This document shows positions 5,145 to 29,149 of a stretch of 42,156 nucleotides of DNA, piece after piece (position 1 is the first letter of the stretch; the number at the start of each line of letters is the position of its first letter). The stretch covers positions 1-42,156 of the forward strand of contig VXTZ01000019.1 of assembly GCA_009837205.1 (NCBI GenBank), read 5' to 3'. Both the position numbers and the translations under genes were made by a program. The stretch comes from Candidatus Dadabacteria bacterium. GTDB lineage: Bacteria > Desulfobacterota_D > UBA1144 > Nemesobacterales > Nemesobacteraceae. A model generated the notes under the pieces. The model searched no databases, was not told the origin of the DNA, and was given only the letters and a program-made list of their open reading frames with translations.

Positions 5145-5990
5145 ATGGCAAGGCCGCTAAGACCGGAATACGCAGGGGCCGTCTATTACGTCTCCTCAGT
5201 CGGGAACAGAGGGCAGAGCGTCTTTCAGAACTCAGCCGACGGCAACACTTGGATAGAAGTCCTCGAGGGGGTATGCGGAAGGTTCGGATGCCTCTGCTTT
5301 GGCTACTGTCTCATGTCCGACGGGTACCATCTGGTCATTGAGACCCCAAAGCCCAACCTCTCAAAAGCCATAAGACAGCTAAACGGCGTTTACACTCAGC
5401 GTTCAAACAGGCTGCACGATACAGACGGTCATGTTTTCCGGGGAAGATATAAATCCATAGCTGTCCAGAGGGAGAAATATCTTCTACCCCTTATGGCCCA
5501 TATCTTTCTTCTCCCCCTTCGAGCCGGGTTCGTACAACATCCCAACCAGTTCAAATGGAGCAGTTGCAGGTACCTTTACGGAAAGGATGAAGCGCCAGGA
5601 TACATAGACCTCGAGTGGTTCTCAGAAGGATTCTCTTCGGATATAAACGCTTTTGATGAGTTTCTCGAAGAGAATAGTTCGCGCGACGTGATCTCGGAAG
5701 CCCGAAAGCAGGTATATCTCGGCGATGATGGATTCATAGAGCTTGTGCAGGAAAAAACGAAGAGGGATTCGCGGTCAAAAGATATTCCCAAGTATCAGCT
5801 CACAAAACCCCTACCGGGCATGATAGACGGCTTCATGCGAAGCGGACACTCAAGAGAGGAAGCGATAGCTAAAACCTACCTTACGGGGGACTACACACTG
5901 AGAGAAGTTGCCGACGCGGTCTCAGTTCACTACTCGGTTGTGAGCAAGATCGTAAGCGAATACGAGAAAACCTCTTCTCTTTCTCGGTAA
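5145..5990 (+). CDS. RAYT/Y1-type transposase relative lacking catalytic residues
   Basis: REP-associated tyrosine transposase family (Y1/HUH fold) of 281 residues. The framework is clear: MARPLRPEYAGAVYYVSS start, RQLNGVYTQRSNR at about 77-89, HVFRGRYKSI and RAGFV at about 126-130. In active members the metal-binding motif reads NHYH and a tyrosine sits in RYIxLNPVRAG. Here the first becomes D59-G60-Y61-H62 and the catalytic tyrosine is H119 (AHIFLLPLRAG), so one HUH histidine and the nucleophile are both missing. The C-terminal 100 residues include an HTH-like segment (TLREVADAVSVHYSVVSKIV). The frame is intact with no stop or frameshift. It may be a domesticated DNA-binding protein; that function is inference. 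Confidence 0.82.
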   Translation: MARPLRPEYAGAVYYVSSVGNRGQSVFQNSADGNTWIEVLEGVCGRFGCLCFGYCLMSDGYHLVIETPKPNLSKAIRQLNGVYTQRSNRLHDTDGHVFRGRYKSIAVQREKYLLPLMAHIFLLPLRAGFVQHPNQFKWSSCRYLYGKDEAPGYIDLEWFSEGFSSDINAFDEFLEENSSRDVISEARKQVYLGDDGFIELVQEKTKRDSRSKDIPKYQLTKPLPGMIDGFMRSGHSREEAIAKTYLTGDYTLREVADAVSVHYSVVSKIVSEYEKTSSLSR

Positions 5991-14102: not shown

Positions 14103-14212
14103 TATGTCGTTGGGATTCAGGTTGCAAAGCCAAGCTGATTCTAGGTGGCGGGTTCGACCTGAAGACTAACGTGAGGTAACTATCTATGTAAAACACGCAA
14201 AGGGGGTTGAAG
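14103..14212 (+). other. structured 5-prime leader of unknown class
   Basis: The leader can fold into a closing stem of 7 pairs (CAGGTTG 14118-14124 with CGACCTG 14155-14161, one G-U) enclosing GCCA/TGGC (14129-14132 with 14146-14149) and the unpaired strings CAAA and GGGTT. A strong Shine-Dalgarno AGGGGG (14201-14206) lies 6 bases before the ATG. GCAAAGCC and GCGGGTT are reminiscent of cyclic-di-GMP-I riboswitches, but the 5-prime half of that motif is not visible, so no class is assigned. Confidence 0.3.
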
Positions 14213-16768
14213 ATGAGTGCTGTACTCTTACGAAAACCGGGAAGTTCCATTAATTCCAGTGCCGTTATAAAGATACAAAATCCGGTCTTCTTTCTCTGCA
14301 TGTTGGCACTGCTTGTCTTCTTTTCCCACGCGGGTCCGCTTCAGGCCCATGAAATCCCTGGTATCCCGAGCCGCGCAGGCACAGAAGACAACCACAGCCC
14401 CGACAGCATAACAGCAAAAGACGTCAGAGCCGGGAACATGGAAGACATGAAAGCCTTCATGCTGCACGCAATGGCTCACATGGAGCAGCTAATAGACTAC
14501 AACACCGGCCTCGCGCCCTTTCTGCAGCTCATTGAAGAGGAGGGAGGTGACTGGCGCAAAGACAGCATATATATCTTCCGGACGAGCAAAGATGGTGTAA
14601 TACAGCAACCCCACCCCTATTATCCTCCCGCCCAAGGCGGAATCCTGTCACACAAAAATCCCGTTATGAAAGGGCTCATGGACGAGTTACAAGAAAAAGA
14701 AGATGGAGTGGCTTGTCGCAATTACACTTTCAGGAATGAAGAGAGAGCGGCATGTGCCGTTAAATTTAACCTGCACCTCGACAGTCTTTCGTTTCCGCTT
14801 CCGACCATCCTGGTCGGCGGGCTTCACCATAATTTCTCAGATGTGTCCTTTTCCAATCTGAAATGCCCTCATTATGTTCCCGAAACAAGCGCCGTCGACG
14901 TGGTGGACAGGGATACGCTCAAGAAGTTTGTAGACGAGTTCGCTCAATTCTATGTTGAGTGGCGGGAAAGGGTAGGCCTGCTTGAGCTTATCAACTCGGT
15001 GAGTTGTTTCAGGGTCTTGCCATGGAAAAACGATTCCATCTACCTTTTCGCAATGGCTGCAAATAACCGGTTAGTTGTTCTAAACGGCAACACGCCCAGC
15101 CTTGAGAACAAAAGCCTGAATGTTGAAGACGACAACGGAACCAATGTCGGGGATCTGCTGGTAGAAGCCGTAAAGGATTTGCCGCATTTACCTTCCGGCG
15201 AAGGAGCGTTTGTTGAGTATCTCTGGGACGACCCGACTACGCCTGATGACGATATACGCGACGCCGAAGGAAATCTGATACCCGGCAGGGCTCCCGGCAA
15301 TTCTCCCAAGATAACCTATGTCACGTCGATTCCGTCAACCGATGGGCAGGGTCAGATCATCTGGGGTTCCGGCATCTATCCCGAAACAGGTGACGACAAT
15401 GGCTGCGCTATCGCGGAAGGAGCGGACGCACCCGGAAGCGTCCTGCTCAACTTCTTCATGACAGTTCTGTTTTTGCTCCCTGCGGTTTTCCTTAAAAAAC
15501 GCTCAGGAATAAAGAAAGCCTTTGCGCAAAGCGGACCGGCGGCCTTCGTTGTCTGTGCGTTGGCGACACTTGTTTTTCTCTCGGGTCCCGACACAGCTGT
15601 GGCCCATGAGGGCGAACACAACCATAGCATAATTGCCGGAGGTGTAGATGCTTCGGACCAGGATGATATGCTCGAATTCGTTCTGCACGCGAAAGTTCAC
15701 TGGGAAGCCATAGACGATCCGAACGAAAACATAAGATTCGAGAAAAGCCTGACCGTTGACGGAGGGGACTGGAAAAACGGCACCATATACCTCATGGTGA
15801 TAGATGAAGACGGAACGATCTATACTCACGCGCACGACCCTGAGGCGCAGAACGGAACCTTGAATGCTACGGAACTCATAGCAAAAGCCGATGAAGGCGG
15901 TTGCGTTGATTATGTCCTGAACGGCGAAAACAGGGTGGCCTGTGCCGTCAAGTTTGAGCATCCGGTCTGGAAAAGCGAGCTCATACTCATCGGCGGGCTT
16001 CACCATGAGTCTGGTGACGTAAGTTTTTACAACATAAGATGTCCTTATTTCATAAGTGAGATCATTGATGAAGAACCCTATTTCAAGCAGGGGATAACTG
16101 CCAACAAGGTTACAGACAGCGACACGCTGAAGAATTTTGTGAAAGAATTCAAAAAGCATTTCACGGAGCAGGTAGAACAAGCCGGGCAGACTCCCGCCAG
16201 TCTGGCTTCTGTGCGCAACTGCTGGAGAGCGCTTCCGTGGAAACACGGGGCCGTATACCTGTTTGTGATGACGGAGAGCGACCAGCTTGTGTTTTTTAAC
16301 GGGAATTCCCCGGCGCTTGAAAACGGGACTCTTGATGTTGTGGACGACAACGGATGTAATGTAGGCGACGAAGTGGTAAGGGTAGTGAATAATGAGCCGA
16401 GGCAGTGCAGGGACCTGGGGCTGCTGCCCGGGGATGCAGAGGGTTTTGTTGAGTACCTTTGGGATGATCCGACTGATTCCGCTCCTGCTCTCCCGGGAGA
16501 AGGCACAGCCCCGGGTGATGTGCCGAAGCTTAGCTACGTGGAACGGGTAAGTTTCCCCGGGTTTCTCGGTGGCCAGCCACTTATAGTCGGTTCCGGATAT
16601 CATCCTGGAACAAGCAACGACGATGGAGGGTGTGCGGTCGCCGCAACTTCCGCCAGGGGGGGAGCTTTGTTTAACTCGCTTCTTATAGTTTCCGTGTTGT
16701 TCTCCGCGGCTTTGTGGAAAAGACGCCCAATGGGAAAACAGACTGTATCCGACTCTCGGGAACGCTAG
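14213..16768 (+). CDS. exported protein made of two tandem Cache-like precursors fused in frame
   Basis: 851 residues, no relative recognised by name. Two halves align along their length. Each runs: signal peptide ending in AHE (first after about residue 45, second hydrophobic 443-457 then AVA|HEG near 464), a DM..F.LHA..H helix, GGDW..IY..DG.I, R.ACAVKF, GGLHH..DVSF.N..CP, D.DTLK.FV.EF, LPWK..YLF.M, NGN.P.LEN, DDNG.NVGD, FVEYLWDDP and GSG..P. This looks like paired Cache/PDC-type sensor modules. Each half ends DDxGCAxA, a hydrophobic stretch and Lys/Arg (about 394-431 and 803-838), like a C-terminal sorting signal. Start: the ATG at 14213 has AGGGGG six bases upstream; the TTG at 14207 abuts it and is rejected. 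Function unknown. Confidence 0.8.
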   Translation: MSAVLLRKPGSSINSSAVIKIQNPVFFLCMLALLVFFSHAGPLQAHEIPGIPSRAGTEDNHSPDSITAKDVRAGNMEDMKAFMLHAMAHMEQLIDYNTGLAPFLQLIEEEGGDWRKDSIYIFRTSKDGVIQQPHPYYPPAQGGILSHKNPVMKGLMDELQEKEDGVACRNYTFRNEERAACAVKFNLHLDSLSFPLPTILVGGLHHNFSDVSFSNLKCPHYVPETSAVDVVDRDTLKKFVDEFAQFYVEWRERVGLLELINSVSCFRVLPWKNDSIYLFAMAANNRLVVLNGNTPSLENKSLNVEDDNGTNVGDLLVEAVKDLPHLPSGEGAFVEYLWDDPTTPDDDIRDAEGNLIPGRAPGNSPKITYVTSIPSTDGQGQIIWGSGIYPETGDDNGCAIAEGADAPGSVLLNFFMTVLFLLPAVFLKKRSGIKKAFAQSGPAAFVVCALATLVFLSGPDTAVAHEGEHNHSIIAGGVDASDQDDMLEFVLHAKVHWEAIDDPNENIRFEKSLTVDGGDWKNGTIYLMVIDEDGTIYTHAHDPEAQNGTLNATELIAKADEGGCVDYVLNGENRVACAVKFEHPVWKSELILIGGLHHESGDVSFYNIRCPYFISEIIDEEPYFKQGITANKVTDSDTLKNFVKEFKKHFTEQVEQAGQTPASLASVRNCWRALPWKHGAVYLFVMTESDQLVFFNGNSPALENGTLDVVDDNGCNVGDEVVRVVNNEPRQCRDLGLLPGDAEGFVEYLWDDPTDSAPALPGEGTAPGDVPKLSYVERVSFPGFLGGQPLIVGSGYHPGTSNDDGGCAVAATSARGGALFNSLLIVSVLFSAALWKRRPMGKQTVSDSRER

Positions 16769-24571: not shown

Positions 24572-24656
24572 GGTGAATAACAATCTATTCACCGCATATT
24601 TTACGGCGATTTTCTTGCTTATGTGATAAATAAAAGGTACAAACAATGCGGTGAAT
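24572..24656 (+). promoter_or_regulatory. repeat operator upstream of fic
   Basis: GGTGAATA (24572-24579) and TATTCACC (24586-24593) form a perfect inverted repeat with a 6-base spacer. The right arm extends as ATTCACCGCAT (24587-24597), and its exact 11-base reverse complement ATGCGGTGAAT occurs at 24646-24656, just before the ATG at 24660. Three copies of one half-site around a promoter region suggest a repressor operator, perhaps bound by the HTH tail of the Fic protein itself. Repeats are seen; the regulator is inferred. Confidence 0.6.
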
Positions 24657-24659
24657 GAT

Positions 24660-25769
24660 ATGTGGATACATGAGCATCATAACTGGCCGGACTTCACTTG
24701 GGATCTCAAAAAACTCGCTTCCAAGCTTGTCAATATTCGACACCGTCAGGGTCGTCTGCTAGGCAGAATGGAAGGATTAGGTTTCGAACTCAAGCAAGAA
24801 GCAAGTCTCGGAACACTGACAAGCGATGTCGTTAAATCATCAGCCATCGAGGGAGAAAATCTGAACCCGCAAGAGGTTCGCTCATCAATCGCTCGCCGAC
24901 TAGGGATTGATATCGCCGGCATTACGTCAGTGAACCAAGATATTGAGGGTATTGTTGAAATGATGCTGGATGCGACCCAGCAATCTATCAAACCTTTAAC
25001 AAAAGACAGATTGTTTGACTGGCATGCGGCACTGTTTCCAACAGGTCGCAGCGGCATGCGTCGCATCACAGTTGGTGGCTGGCGCTCCGTCGAATCCGGT
25101 CCCATGCAAGTGGTTTCAGGTCCTATAGGACGTGAAAAAGTTCATTTCGAGGCTCCAAACGCAGAGCACCTTGAACATGAGATGACGGGGTTTCTGGTAT
25201 GGTTTGAGAGCAAGGATGATACTGACCCCGTGCTCAGAGCCGGTATTGCCCATCTGTGGTTTGTGACAATTCATCCATTTGAAGACGGTAATGGACGTAT
25301 TGCAAGAGCGATTACCGATATGGCCCTGGCGCGTGCTGACGGCATGGGAGACCGCTTTTACAGCCTTTCATCGCAATTTGAATCTGAGCGCAAAGATTAT
25401 TATGACCAGTTGGAAAAACAGCAACGCGGCACGCCGGAGGTAACAGGTTGGTTTGAATGGTTTCTGGATTGCCTTGGTCGTGCAATTGCCAGAGCCGAAG
25501 ACACACTGAGCACCGTGTTATTTAAAGCACAGCTGTGGGAAAAGATTAATCGGCAACCTGTCAATAAACGTCAGCGTCTGATTATTAATCGTATGCTGGA
25601 GCATGATTTTAGAGGGCATATGAGCACCTCAAAGTATGCAAAACTGGCCAAGTGCTCCACAGATACAGCATTACGGGACATTCAGCACTTAAAGTCACTC
25701 GGCATTTTTATTCAGAACCCTGGCGGCGGACGAAGCACAAGCTACCGCTTGCCGGATACCATTAACTGA
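24660..25769 (+). CDS. Fic family AMP-transferase (DUF4172-Fic-HTH)
   Basis: 369 residues from the ATG at 24660 (MWIHEHHNWPDFTWD is the usual N terminus; the upstream GTG at 24651 lies in the operator repeat). DUF4172-type N domain with class II inhibitory helix SSAIEG (60-65), whose Glu blocks ATP binding. The Fic motif HPFEDGNGR is at 205-213. A winged-helix-like C terminus contains YAKLAKCSTDTALRDIQHLKSLG. Expected to transfer AMP to a protein target and to be self-inhibited, so no antitoxin is needed. Base use is more AT-rich than the neighbours and it ends 9 bases from the rnr stop, fitting horizontal gain at this site. Confidence 0.92.
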   Translation: MWIHEHHNWPDFTWDLKKLASKLVNIRHRQGRLLGRMEGLGFELKQEASLGTLTSDVVKSSAIEGENLNPQEVRSSIARRLGIDIAGITSVNQDIEGIVEMMLDATQQSIKPLTKDRLFDWHAALFPTGRSGMRRITVGGWRSVESGPMQVVSGPIGREKVHFEAPNAEHLEHEMTGFLVWFESKDDTDPVLRAGIAHLWFVTIHPFEDGNGRIARAITDMALARADGMGDRFYSLSSQFESERKDYYDQLEKQQRGTPEVTGWFEWFLDCLGRAIARAEDTLSTVLFKAQLWEKINRQPVNKRQRLIINRMLEHDFRGHMSTSKYAKLAKCSTDTALRDIQHLKSLGIFIQNPGGGRSTSYRLPDTIN

Positions 25770-28066: not shown

Positions 28067-29149
28067 TCACAAACCCCTAAGCGCAAGTCCCACCGCAACT
28101 GCCATCTTCGGGGCCAGATGTTCAATGTATTCAGGATCAAAACGCGAATCCGAAACAGTGATGTTTTGAAAAGGATTTGAAATCTCGACCTGAACCCCAG
28201 TGGCCTCTCCAAGTACATCGGCGAGAGTTGCTATTCTTGAAGATCCCCCGGAAAGAATTATTCGGTCGATTACGTCTCCCGCTTCATCAAGAACCGTCTT
28301 TATCTCATCAGTGGCACGAGCAACGAAATCAGTAAAAACATTTTCTATTTCGTCATATCTGCCATAACCTTTAAGGCTGAACTTTATTCTCTCCGCCTCT
28401 TCGTAGGTAATTTTGAATTCCTCCATCAAACGAAACGTAATCCATTGTCCCCCAAGCGAAATATCCTTCAGCACAAAGGGCACTGTACCATCCAAAACGC
28501 TCAAGTTAGTCCCTGACGCTCCGATATTCACAAGCGCCACCTTTTGACCGCGACCGCGGCAAAAAACTGTATAGCAGTTTGAAAGGGCCATGGCGTCAAC
28601 ATCAATTGCTTGGGCGCGGAGTCCCGCCGAGAAAAGCGAACTTTTATACTCCTGCGCCGTTTTTTTCGAAACTGCCGCAACCAGCACCTGGGTCTCCTCG
28701 GATTTCCCGTTGCGGCGGAAAAGCGAAGTGTAGCTGTAATTAACTCCGCTAACGTCTTTGCGAAGACTGGTTCTCACAAGGTCCGGAACAAGTTTTTCCA
28801 TGTCCTCTCTGAGGAAAATTCTGGGAACATTTACGACTTCTAAAGCAACGGCTTCGCCGGAAACTCCTATAACCGCCTTTTTCGTTCTCACGCCGAGCTT
28901 AGAAACGAGACTTGATACAACCCCCGAAACTATGTCGCCCCTTGAAATCGACTTGCGGACTATTGCATCTCTAGGAAGCATAGCCTCTCCCATATTCTCA
29001 AGCCGGTAGGTTCCACCCCCGTAGGAAAGTTCCACAATCTTGACAGAACTTGAACCTATATCTATTCCAACCATGGCATCTTTCCCCTCAAGGAGGGAAT
29101 CTGGGCGACGAAGTTTACCGAAAGCCAACTTTTTAAAAGGAGAAATCAA
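28067..29149 (-). CDS. pilM: PilM-like actin-fold ATPase
   Basis: 360 residues of the type IV pilus assembly PilM/FtsA-like fold: GIDIGSSSVKIVEL (phosphate 1), VVNVPRIFLREDMEKLVPDLVR, KVALVNIGASGTNLSVLDG (phosphate 2), GGQWITFRLMEEFKITYEEAE and IILSGGSSRI. PilM normally sits on the inner-membrane face, binds the PilN tail, and heads pilMNOPQ. Here no pilN follows; instead it is last of four genes after XRE, membrane sensor and lipoprotein. The frame starts at TTG 29149; a later ATG at 29074 begins right at the phosphate loop and would lose the usual N-terminal tail. Confidence 0.88.
   Translation of the reverse strand: MISPFKKLAFGKLRRPDSLLEGKDAMVGIDIGSSSVKIVELSYGGGTYRLENMGEAMLPRDAIVRKSISRGDIVSGVVSSLVSKLGVRTKKAVIGVSGEAVALEVVNVPRIFLREDMEKLVPDLVRTSLRKDVSGVNYSYTSLFRRNGKSEETQVLVAAVSKKTAQEYKSSLFSAGLRAQAIDVDAMALSNCYTVFCRGRGQKVALVNIGASGTNLSVLDGTVPFVLKDISLGGQWITFRLMEEFKITYEEAERIKFSLKGYGRYDEIENVFTDFVARATDEIKTVLDEAGDVIDRIILSGGSSRIATLADVLGEATGVQVEISNPFQNITVSDSRFDPEYIEHLAPKMAVAVGLALRGL

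Follow-up and report, generated by a model that had tools for sequence, protein, structure and literature searches.

The fused gene and its two halves

The window, that is, the whole stretch of 42,156 nucleotides analysed here, comes from a Candidatus Dadabacteria bacterium with a genome of 1.69 Mb. On its forward strand lies a single open reading frame that runs from an ATG at 14213 to a stop codon ending at 16768, with a TTG upstream at 14207, and that encodes two homologous exported precursors, one after the other. The features of this gene are given below, with residues of the fused protein counted from the ATG at 14213.

14213..16768, plus strand: fused gene, two homologous exported Cache precursors in a single frame, 851 aa (ORF list, alignment of half against half)
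14213..14347, plus strand: predicted signal peptide of unit A, covering residues 1-45 and ending at a putative cut site LQA/H46 (hydropathy and LQA/H motif)
14348..15394, plus strand: predicted mature part of unit A, residues 46-394, with Cache modules (Pfam, alignment)
15398..15415, plus strand: putative internal sorting tag NGCAIA, N396-G397-C398-A399-I-A401 (tail model A4, conservation)
15428..15499, plus strand: hydrophobic part of the internal tag, residues 406-429 (hydropathy; in nine of nine fused genes)
15500..15529, plus strand: basic loop RSGIKKAFAQ, net charge +3, expected to be cytoplasmic (hydropathy, codon scan)
15530..15604, plus strand: predicted internal signal peptide, hydrophobic core 440-460 and c-region A462-V-A464 before H465 (invariance in eight distinct fused genes)
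15605..16621, plus strand: predicted mature part of unit B, residues 465-803, modelled as two modules (Pfam, model, structure search)
16625..16720, plus strand: putative terminal sorting tag GGCAVA (G805-G-C807-A-V-A), hydrophobic segment 816-836, then KRR (tail model A4, hydropathy)

Half A and half B are 39% identical over 428 amino acids (E 7e-84), and each of them presents, in the same order, a signal peptide, Cache modules, a glycine-rich and acidic linker, the motif G-C-A-[IV]-A, a hydrophobic stretch and basic residues, which bears out the first-pass annotation of this frame as two precursors fused together. The topology of the fused protein was derived from a hydropathy scan, by which the pair of hydrophobic stretches in the hinge between the halves is predicted to give, by itself, an out-in-out arrangement.

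Cache domains and structure models

The Pfam family dCache_2 matches the whole fused protein above its cut-off (49.6 versus 26.5 bits), and also unit B scanned alone (28.4 bits), while unit A scanned alone falls just below it (residues 269-346, 25.9 bits). A model of unit B, built from nine sequences with a mean pLDDT of 75.9, contains two similar helix-strand modules in tandem, the second of which (residues 168-339 of the model) matches the structures 2qhk, 4exo, 4k08 and 5g4y at Z scores of 13.5-14.6 over 134-136 residues (rmsd 2.9-3.2; best match 2qhk, Z 14.6). Foldseek, run with the unit B model, matched 4exo at E 6.5e-5. The second module of unit B is thus modelled as a Cache-type fold; the fold search bears on this module and barely covers the first one. 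The model of the full-length fused protein was poor (pLDDT 45) and was set aside, and a sequence search against solved structures gave weak matches only, the best at E 0.091 (an affibody) and 4k08 at 0.17.

The likeness to these sCache_2/dCache_2 sensor domains lies in the fold of the second module of unit B. Three of the four structures are titled chemotaxis protein domains and 5g4y a chemosensory domain, whereas the Pfam scan of the fused protein found no signalling or output domain. The protein had been labelled a sensor, but this is not supported: an output domain was not found, and the genome has nine tail-anchored Cache ORFs, of which this is one, so that ligand binding fits better.

Occurrence and origin of the fusion

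Among the matches listed, 13 of the 60 genomes searched contain relatives of the fused protein, and these are the 13 genomes of this Dadabacteria genus. At least nine fused genes with two tags were found in at least six of them, at four kinds of locus: again among the matches listed, one each in G000 (the window), G002, G009 and G010, two in G008 and three in G012. Identities among the fused genes fall to 46%, and a relative of the window gene, L014 of G008, is 99% identical to it, is open through the hinge and extends to the end of its contig. The first locus is adjacent to a gene that we take to be pgi, with a presumed rpiA on the opposite side where the contig permits (window, G008 and G002), the second to a presumed murA (G012, G009 and G010) and the third to a presumed clpX (G012), while the fourth is a further place in G008 and G012. 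The presumed murA locus holds an intact A monomer in G011 and an A monomer frameshifted near the tag in G008, and the presumed pgi locus of G009 holds a collapsed, frameshifted copy. A search of named genomes returned six loci, five in Candidatus Dadabacteria MAGs and one, a weak match, in a Latescibacterota MAG; Dadabacteria MAGs of such kind are sponge-derived. A plasmid collection gave no match.

No pair of separate, adjacent A and B genes was seen in this lineage among the matches listed and the loci retrieved, where copies are fused, A monomers or broken; the arrangement that would have spoken against a genuine fusion, the halves as neighbouring genes in related genomes, was thus not seen. 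In other Cache subfamilies, neighbouring separate genes do occur (L053, L055, L056 and L058), and these are a plausible source of the fusion. In a tree of 50 units, whose root is unresolved and from which the near copy L014 and three longer multidomain proteins were left out, one branch sets the eight A halves off from the B halves and another sets the eight B halves off from the A halves, each with support 100/99, and the G011 monomer sits among the A halves. As the two kinds of half group separately, one old fusion followed by spread and occasional loss appears to be the simplest reading of the sequences. The tail of the G011 monomer has its best DNA match in the B tail of L016 (68% over 117 nt), with short matches to A tails too, a pattern that a deletion between the tags may have left.

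Two local patterns were noted among the copies. Between the window gene and L014, 10 of 16 nucleotide differences lie within codons 404-426 (stop-to-stop numbering; window 15404-15472) in the internal tag, and this cluster is likely a small conversion tract, for which a clear donor was not found among the loci retrieved. In L045 of G010, a stretch of unit B, from about GNGDNVGEL to PKLSYVV, is identical to unit A where other genes differ, which suggests conversion between the halves.

A modular, putative sorting tag in the genome

The tails of these proteins share an invariant cysteine, a hydrophobic segment and a basic end, as a sorting signal would, in the alignments behind two profiles, A1 and A4. 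Profile A1 was built from 23 tails, among them those of fused genes, and has three rows with G in place of D as the first letter; A1 matches on the window are partly by construction, since A1 contained fused-gene tails. A4 is a corrected profile without any tail of a fused gene or of the G011 monomer. The counts of the genome scan, the scan of 23 tails, the distribution of tails over several genomes and the list of weak tails come from A1. Searched against the host genome, A1 found 17 places, comprising 10 tails on nine Cache ORFs, five other proteins and two unresolved or noise places, and A4 found the identical 17. On the window gene, A4 matches the internal tag (15392-15505, E 1.1e-10) as well as the terminal tag (16619-16729, E 1.4e-12).

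Outside the Cache family the five carriers comprise a Spondin_N protein, one with leucine-rich repeats, two that weakly resemble metallo_LGF and contain HExxH, and one that has no family; as judged from sequence, the tail is a modular tag common to unrelated proteins. Altogether 46 tail proteins were listed with a search pattern that required G-C; A-C stands in its place in at least two relatives (L006 and L090). When the tails alone were compared with curated tag models at a lenient limit of E 10, six of 16 matched MYXO-CTERM and six of 16 JDVT-CTERM weakly (nine and eight of 23 with A1), the best E values being 0.0034 for MYXO and 3e-4 for JDVT among the 16 tails (0.0034 and 1.8e-4 among 23). 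None of the curated NCBIfam tag cut-offs was passed by the window protein or by the five other tail proteins scanned, and JDVT-CTERM was above its cut-off in none of 60 genomes.

Strong tails are nearly limited to the genus: with A1 they occur in 12 of its 13 genomes, plus one match in G013 (E 1e-5). Inspection of 17 loci, 15 of them among the 16 listed with weak tails and the other two L128 and L130, revealed a clear tail in four and none in 13, the four being L145 (G013), L135 (G015) and L134 (G024) outside the genus and L133 in the congener G004. This congener, with a genome of 1.3 Mb, keeps the CPBP enzyme described below; the two of its Cache proteins that were read, L023 and L037, are without the GC tag, and L133 is tagged, which makes this genome a natural case for contrast. 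In the host genome, the tag-bearing proteins at L104, L105, L107 and L109 (Spondin_N, leucine-rich-repeat and metallo_LGF-like) form a possible cell-contact repertoire.

A myxosortase-like CPBP protease

At E 0.001, the host genome encodes a single protein of family PF02517 (70.9 bits versus a cut-off of 22.4), whose gene includes G000:C17:76029-76313. One such gene is found in 11 of the 12 other genomes of the genus; in G010 (89% complete), which has tails, none was found. The motifs EExxxR and HxxxN are intact in all 13 aligned CPBP proteins (12 from the genus and that of G013). Against the myxosortase models the protein scores 78 bits for MrtP, 73.9 for Mrt_core, 62.9 for MrtS, 59.3 for MrtC, 47.9 for MrtX and 41.8 for MrtJ, all of them under the NCBIfam cut-offs (100 bits for Mrt_core), and Mrt_core was above its cut-off in none of 60 genomes. 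In 14 control genomes PF02517 matched 11 and Mrt_core three, so that these models have limited specificity. By its sequence, this CPBP protease is myxosortase-like, nearest to the myxosortases, and is the likely enzyme of the tag. Rhombosortase with GlyGly-CTERM was rejected as an alternative, with a best score of 21.1 versus 84 bits; all 14 controls also match and none is over the cut-off.

The co-occurrence of tag and protease gives weak support to this assignment, because the CPBP gene is present throughout the order, including genomes with few or no such tails. An exclusive pairing of the two is not supported, since the gene is order-wide and strong tails are almost confined to the genus. 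At four of the 12 loci of the genus, the stretch retrieved around the CPBP gene also contains a Cache gene with a tail; this gene is one gene away in L080 and L081 and farther off in L086 and L090, and the L090 tag reads GAC instead of GGC. The genome also has one secretin gene, which would be compatible with a type II or type IV export route, by analogy with the myxobacterial model.

Conservation of the hinge and alternative explanations

Across eight distinct fused genes, 10 of the 73 hinge columns are invariant (G397, C398, A399, A401, L421, L450, S457, A462, A464 and H465), and seven of the 10 make up the G-C-A-x-A tag and the internal A-x-A/H site. All five of the expected functional columns, G, C, A(-3), A(-1) and H(+1), are invariant, with a chance expectation of 1.7e-5 that assumes equal columns, ignores relatedness and concerns columns named after the sequences were seen. 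Elsewhere, invariant columns number 69 of 342 in body A, 117 of 329 in body B and six of 35 in the true end tag. A pair of hydrophobic stretches, a loop of net charge +3 to +7 and the A-x-A/H site are present in the hinge of all nine fused genes. The dN/dS ratio is 0.14-0.48 for the hinge, in seven non-independent pairs with enough change (L001/L014 has too few), and 0.11-0.41 for the tag with its hydrophobic stretch. The loop and second signal peptide are loosely constrained (0.18-0.75), and the signal peptide of A itself is about equally loose (0.28-0.77 in six computable pairs). These strictly conserved spots, mostly expected cut sites, point to a bacterial polyprotein, as far as sequence conservation can indicate.

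The main rival to a polyprotein is an uncut tandem protein, in which the hydrophobic pair would stay in the membrane as a hairpin holding both units, and in which the end tail alone, or no tail, would be processed. The out-in-out topology that the pair yields alone and the freedom with which parts of the loop and second signal peptide evolve are what such a protein could have; a hairpin, however, needs neither GCAxA nor A-x-A/H, and yet these account for seven of the 10 invariant hinge columns, which leaves this rival rather unlikely, although it deserves to be taken seriously. A half-processed protein is improbable. Here signal peptidase I would cut at 464/465 alone, leaving A on an unprocessed anchor and releasing B to its own anchor, which agrees with the conservation of A-x-A/H in all nine genes and with a sorting enzyme that is diverged here, unlike signal peptidase I, a general enzyme; against it, G397-C398-A399-x-A401 is invariant in the hinge and the internal tag is recognised by a model of the tails of other proteins.

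It is very improbable that translation of unit B begins, additionally or for the most part, inside the frame, which would make the fusion incidental. The loop contains an ATG with weak purine-rich stretches upstream in L017 and L026 and a GTG in L015, but ATG, GTG and TTG are absent from the loop in six of the nine fused genes, the window gene among them, so that B in most genes would depend on the fused frame, barring a start within the hydrophobic stretch. In the loop of the window gene, an ATA codon may be a lost start. Finally, a missed stop, frameshift or mis-assembly, for which the frameshifted relative in G008:C52 and the collapsed frameshifted one in G009:C1 might be cited, can be dismissed, since the hinge is open in at least nine genes from at least six genomes, which occupy four loci and are in some cases as little as 46% identical, and the frame fault near 15500 that had been set beforehand as decisive was not found.

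Proposed processing and relation to known systems

The fused gene thus probably encodes a surface-protein polyprotein that would be cut by signal peptidase I and the myxosortase-like enzyme into two lipid-anchored Cache proteins. We infer cleavage, lipidation, surface location, ligand and the identity of the acting enzyme along the following lines. Sec would export unit A behind its own signal peptide, until the internal GCAIA tag and its hydrophobic stretch halt transfer. The basic loop would remain cytoplasmic, and the second hydrophobic stretch, acting as a signal peptide, would restart export, with unit B following and becoming anchored through its own GCAVA tail. Signal peptidase I would cut ahead of H46 and H465, the tag cysteines C398 and C807 would be lipidated, and the CPBP protease would cut adjacent to them. 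The products would be two lipid-anchored double-Cache proteins, in equal amounts, at the cell surface, and both could bind small ligands, perhaps small carboxylates, to which the 5g4y match points. A fuller reading is offered tentatively: a conserved Dadabacteria surface polyprotein with its own sorting system, in which cuts by signal peptidase I and the myxosortase-like protease at selectively kept internal sites would give two lipid-anchored ligand-binding proteins in a fixed 1:1 ratio, perhaps a paired receptor. From the polyprotein first proposed for this gene, the layout and the conservation of both internal cut sites stand, while the cuts themselves are carried over as predictions.

The closest known system, in the available part of its description, is MYXO-CTERM with MrtX in Myxococcota, which has the same invariant cysteine, hydrophobic segment and basic end, a CPBP glutamic intramembrane protease with EExxxR and HxxxN, and a tag borne by many surface proteins (PMC11980579). 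According to the same source, MrtX cuts MYXO-CTERM, in E. coli too, and requires the tag cysteines (PMC11980579). The Dadabacteria belong to another phylum, the tags and enzyme described here are below the NCBIfam cut-offs, and the tag is [D/G]GCA[IV]A, its hydrophobic stretch containing N-L-F-L. JDVT-CTERM with MrtJ is likewise an invariant-Cys tag, and there, in what is available of the source, the CPBP protease and tag protein are adjacent (PMC11980579); the Dadabacteria differ in having many tag-bearing proteins instead of a single one.

The layout, unfamiliar to the first-pass annotation, is not wholly without counterpart. In the available text, MXAN_5598 of M. xanthus is reported to contain an internal MYXO-CTERM, possibly through gene fusion, and its authors propose that it is processed and state that mid-protein tags work (PMC11980579). 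In that protein an outer-membrane barrel and an OmpA part come after the tag (PMC11980579), whereas in the Dadabacteria fused gene the next elements are a further signal peptide and another complete precursor, homologous to the first and tagged in its turn. What sets the fused gene apart, at the level of sequence, is that behind the internal tag both this signal peptide and a whole homologous precursor have been retained, an arrangement conserved in nine genes. The literature search, in a coverage outside of which the myxosortase in-silico survey lies, found no paper naming both MYXO-CTERM and Dadabacteria. In the accessible parts of the literature on stand-alone Cache proteins, sponge Dadabacteria, Dadabacteria surface sorting and internal-signal polyproteins, the layout was absent, PMC11980579 aside, and the available part of PMC13393428 contains nothing on internal tags.

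A C-terminal position is what defines this class of sorting tags, and a gene lineage that has spread to several loci and still keeps an internal tag and an internal signal peptide is a natural test of whether these enzymes act on internal sites. The findings also point to a myxosortase-like system in Dadabacteria with Cache, Spondin_N, leucine-rich-repeat and protease-like cargo.

Other observations

Beneath unit B, an antisense ORF of 366 aa lies on the minus strand (15503-16603). It is probably due to chance, because the antisense frames of seven other fused genes (L014, near-identical to the window gene, aside) are of at most 238 codons. Elsewhere in the window, the ORF at 28067-29149 (minus strand) presumably encodes a PilM-type pilus protein, that at 24651-25769 (plus strand) a protein which we take to be of the Fic type, and that at 5145-5990 (plus strand), by presumed resemblance, a REP-type transposase. 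The Latescibacterota protein at L047:2602-5128 has a Cache-like module flanked by two similar repeats that, by eye, are spondin-type-like.
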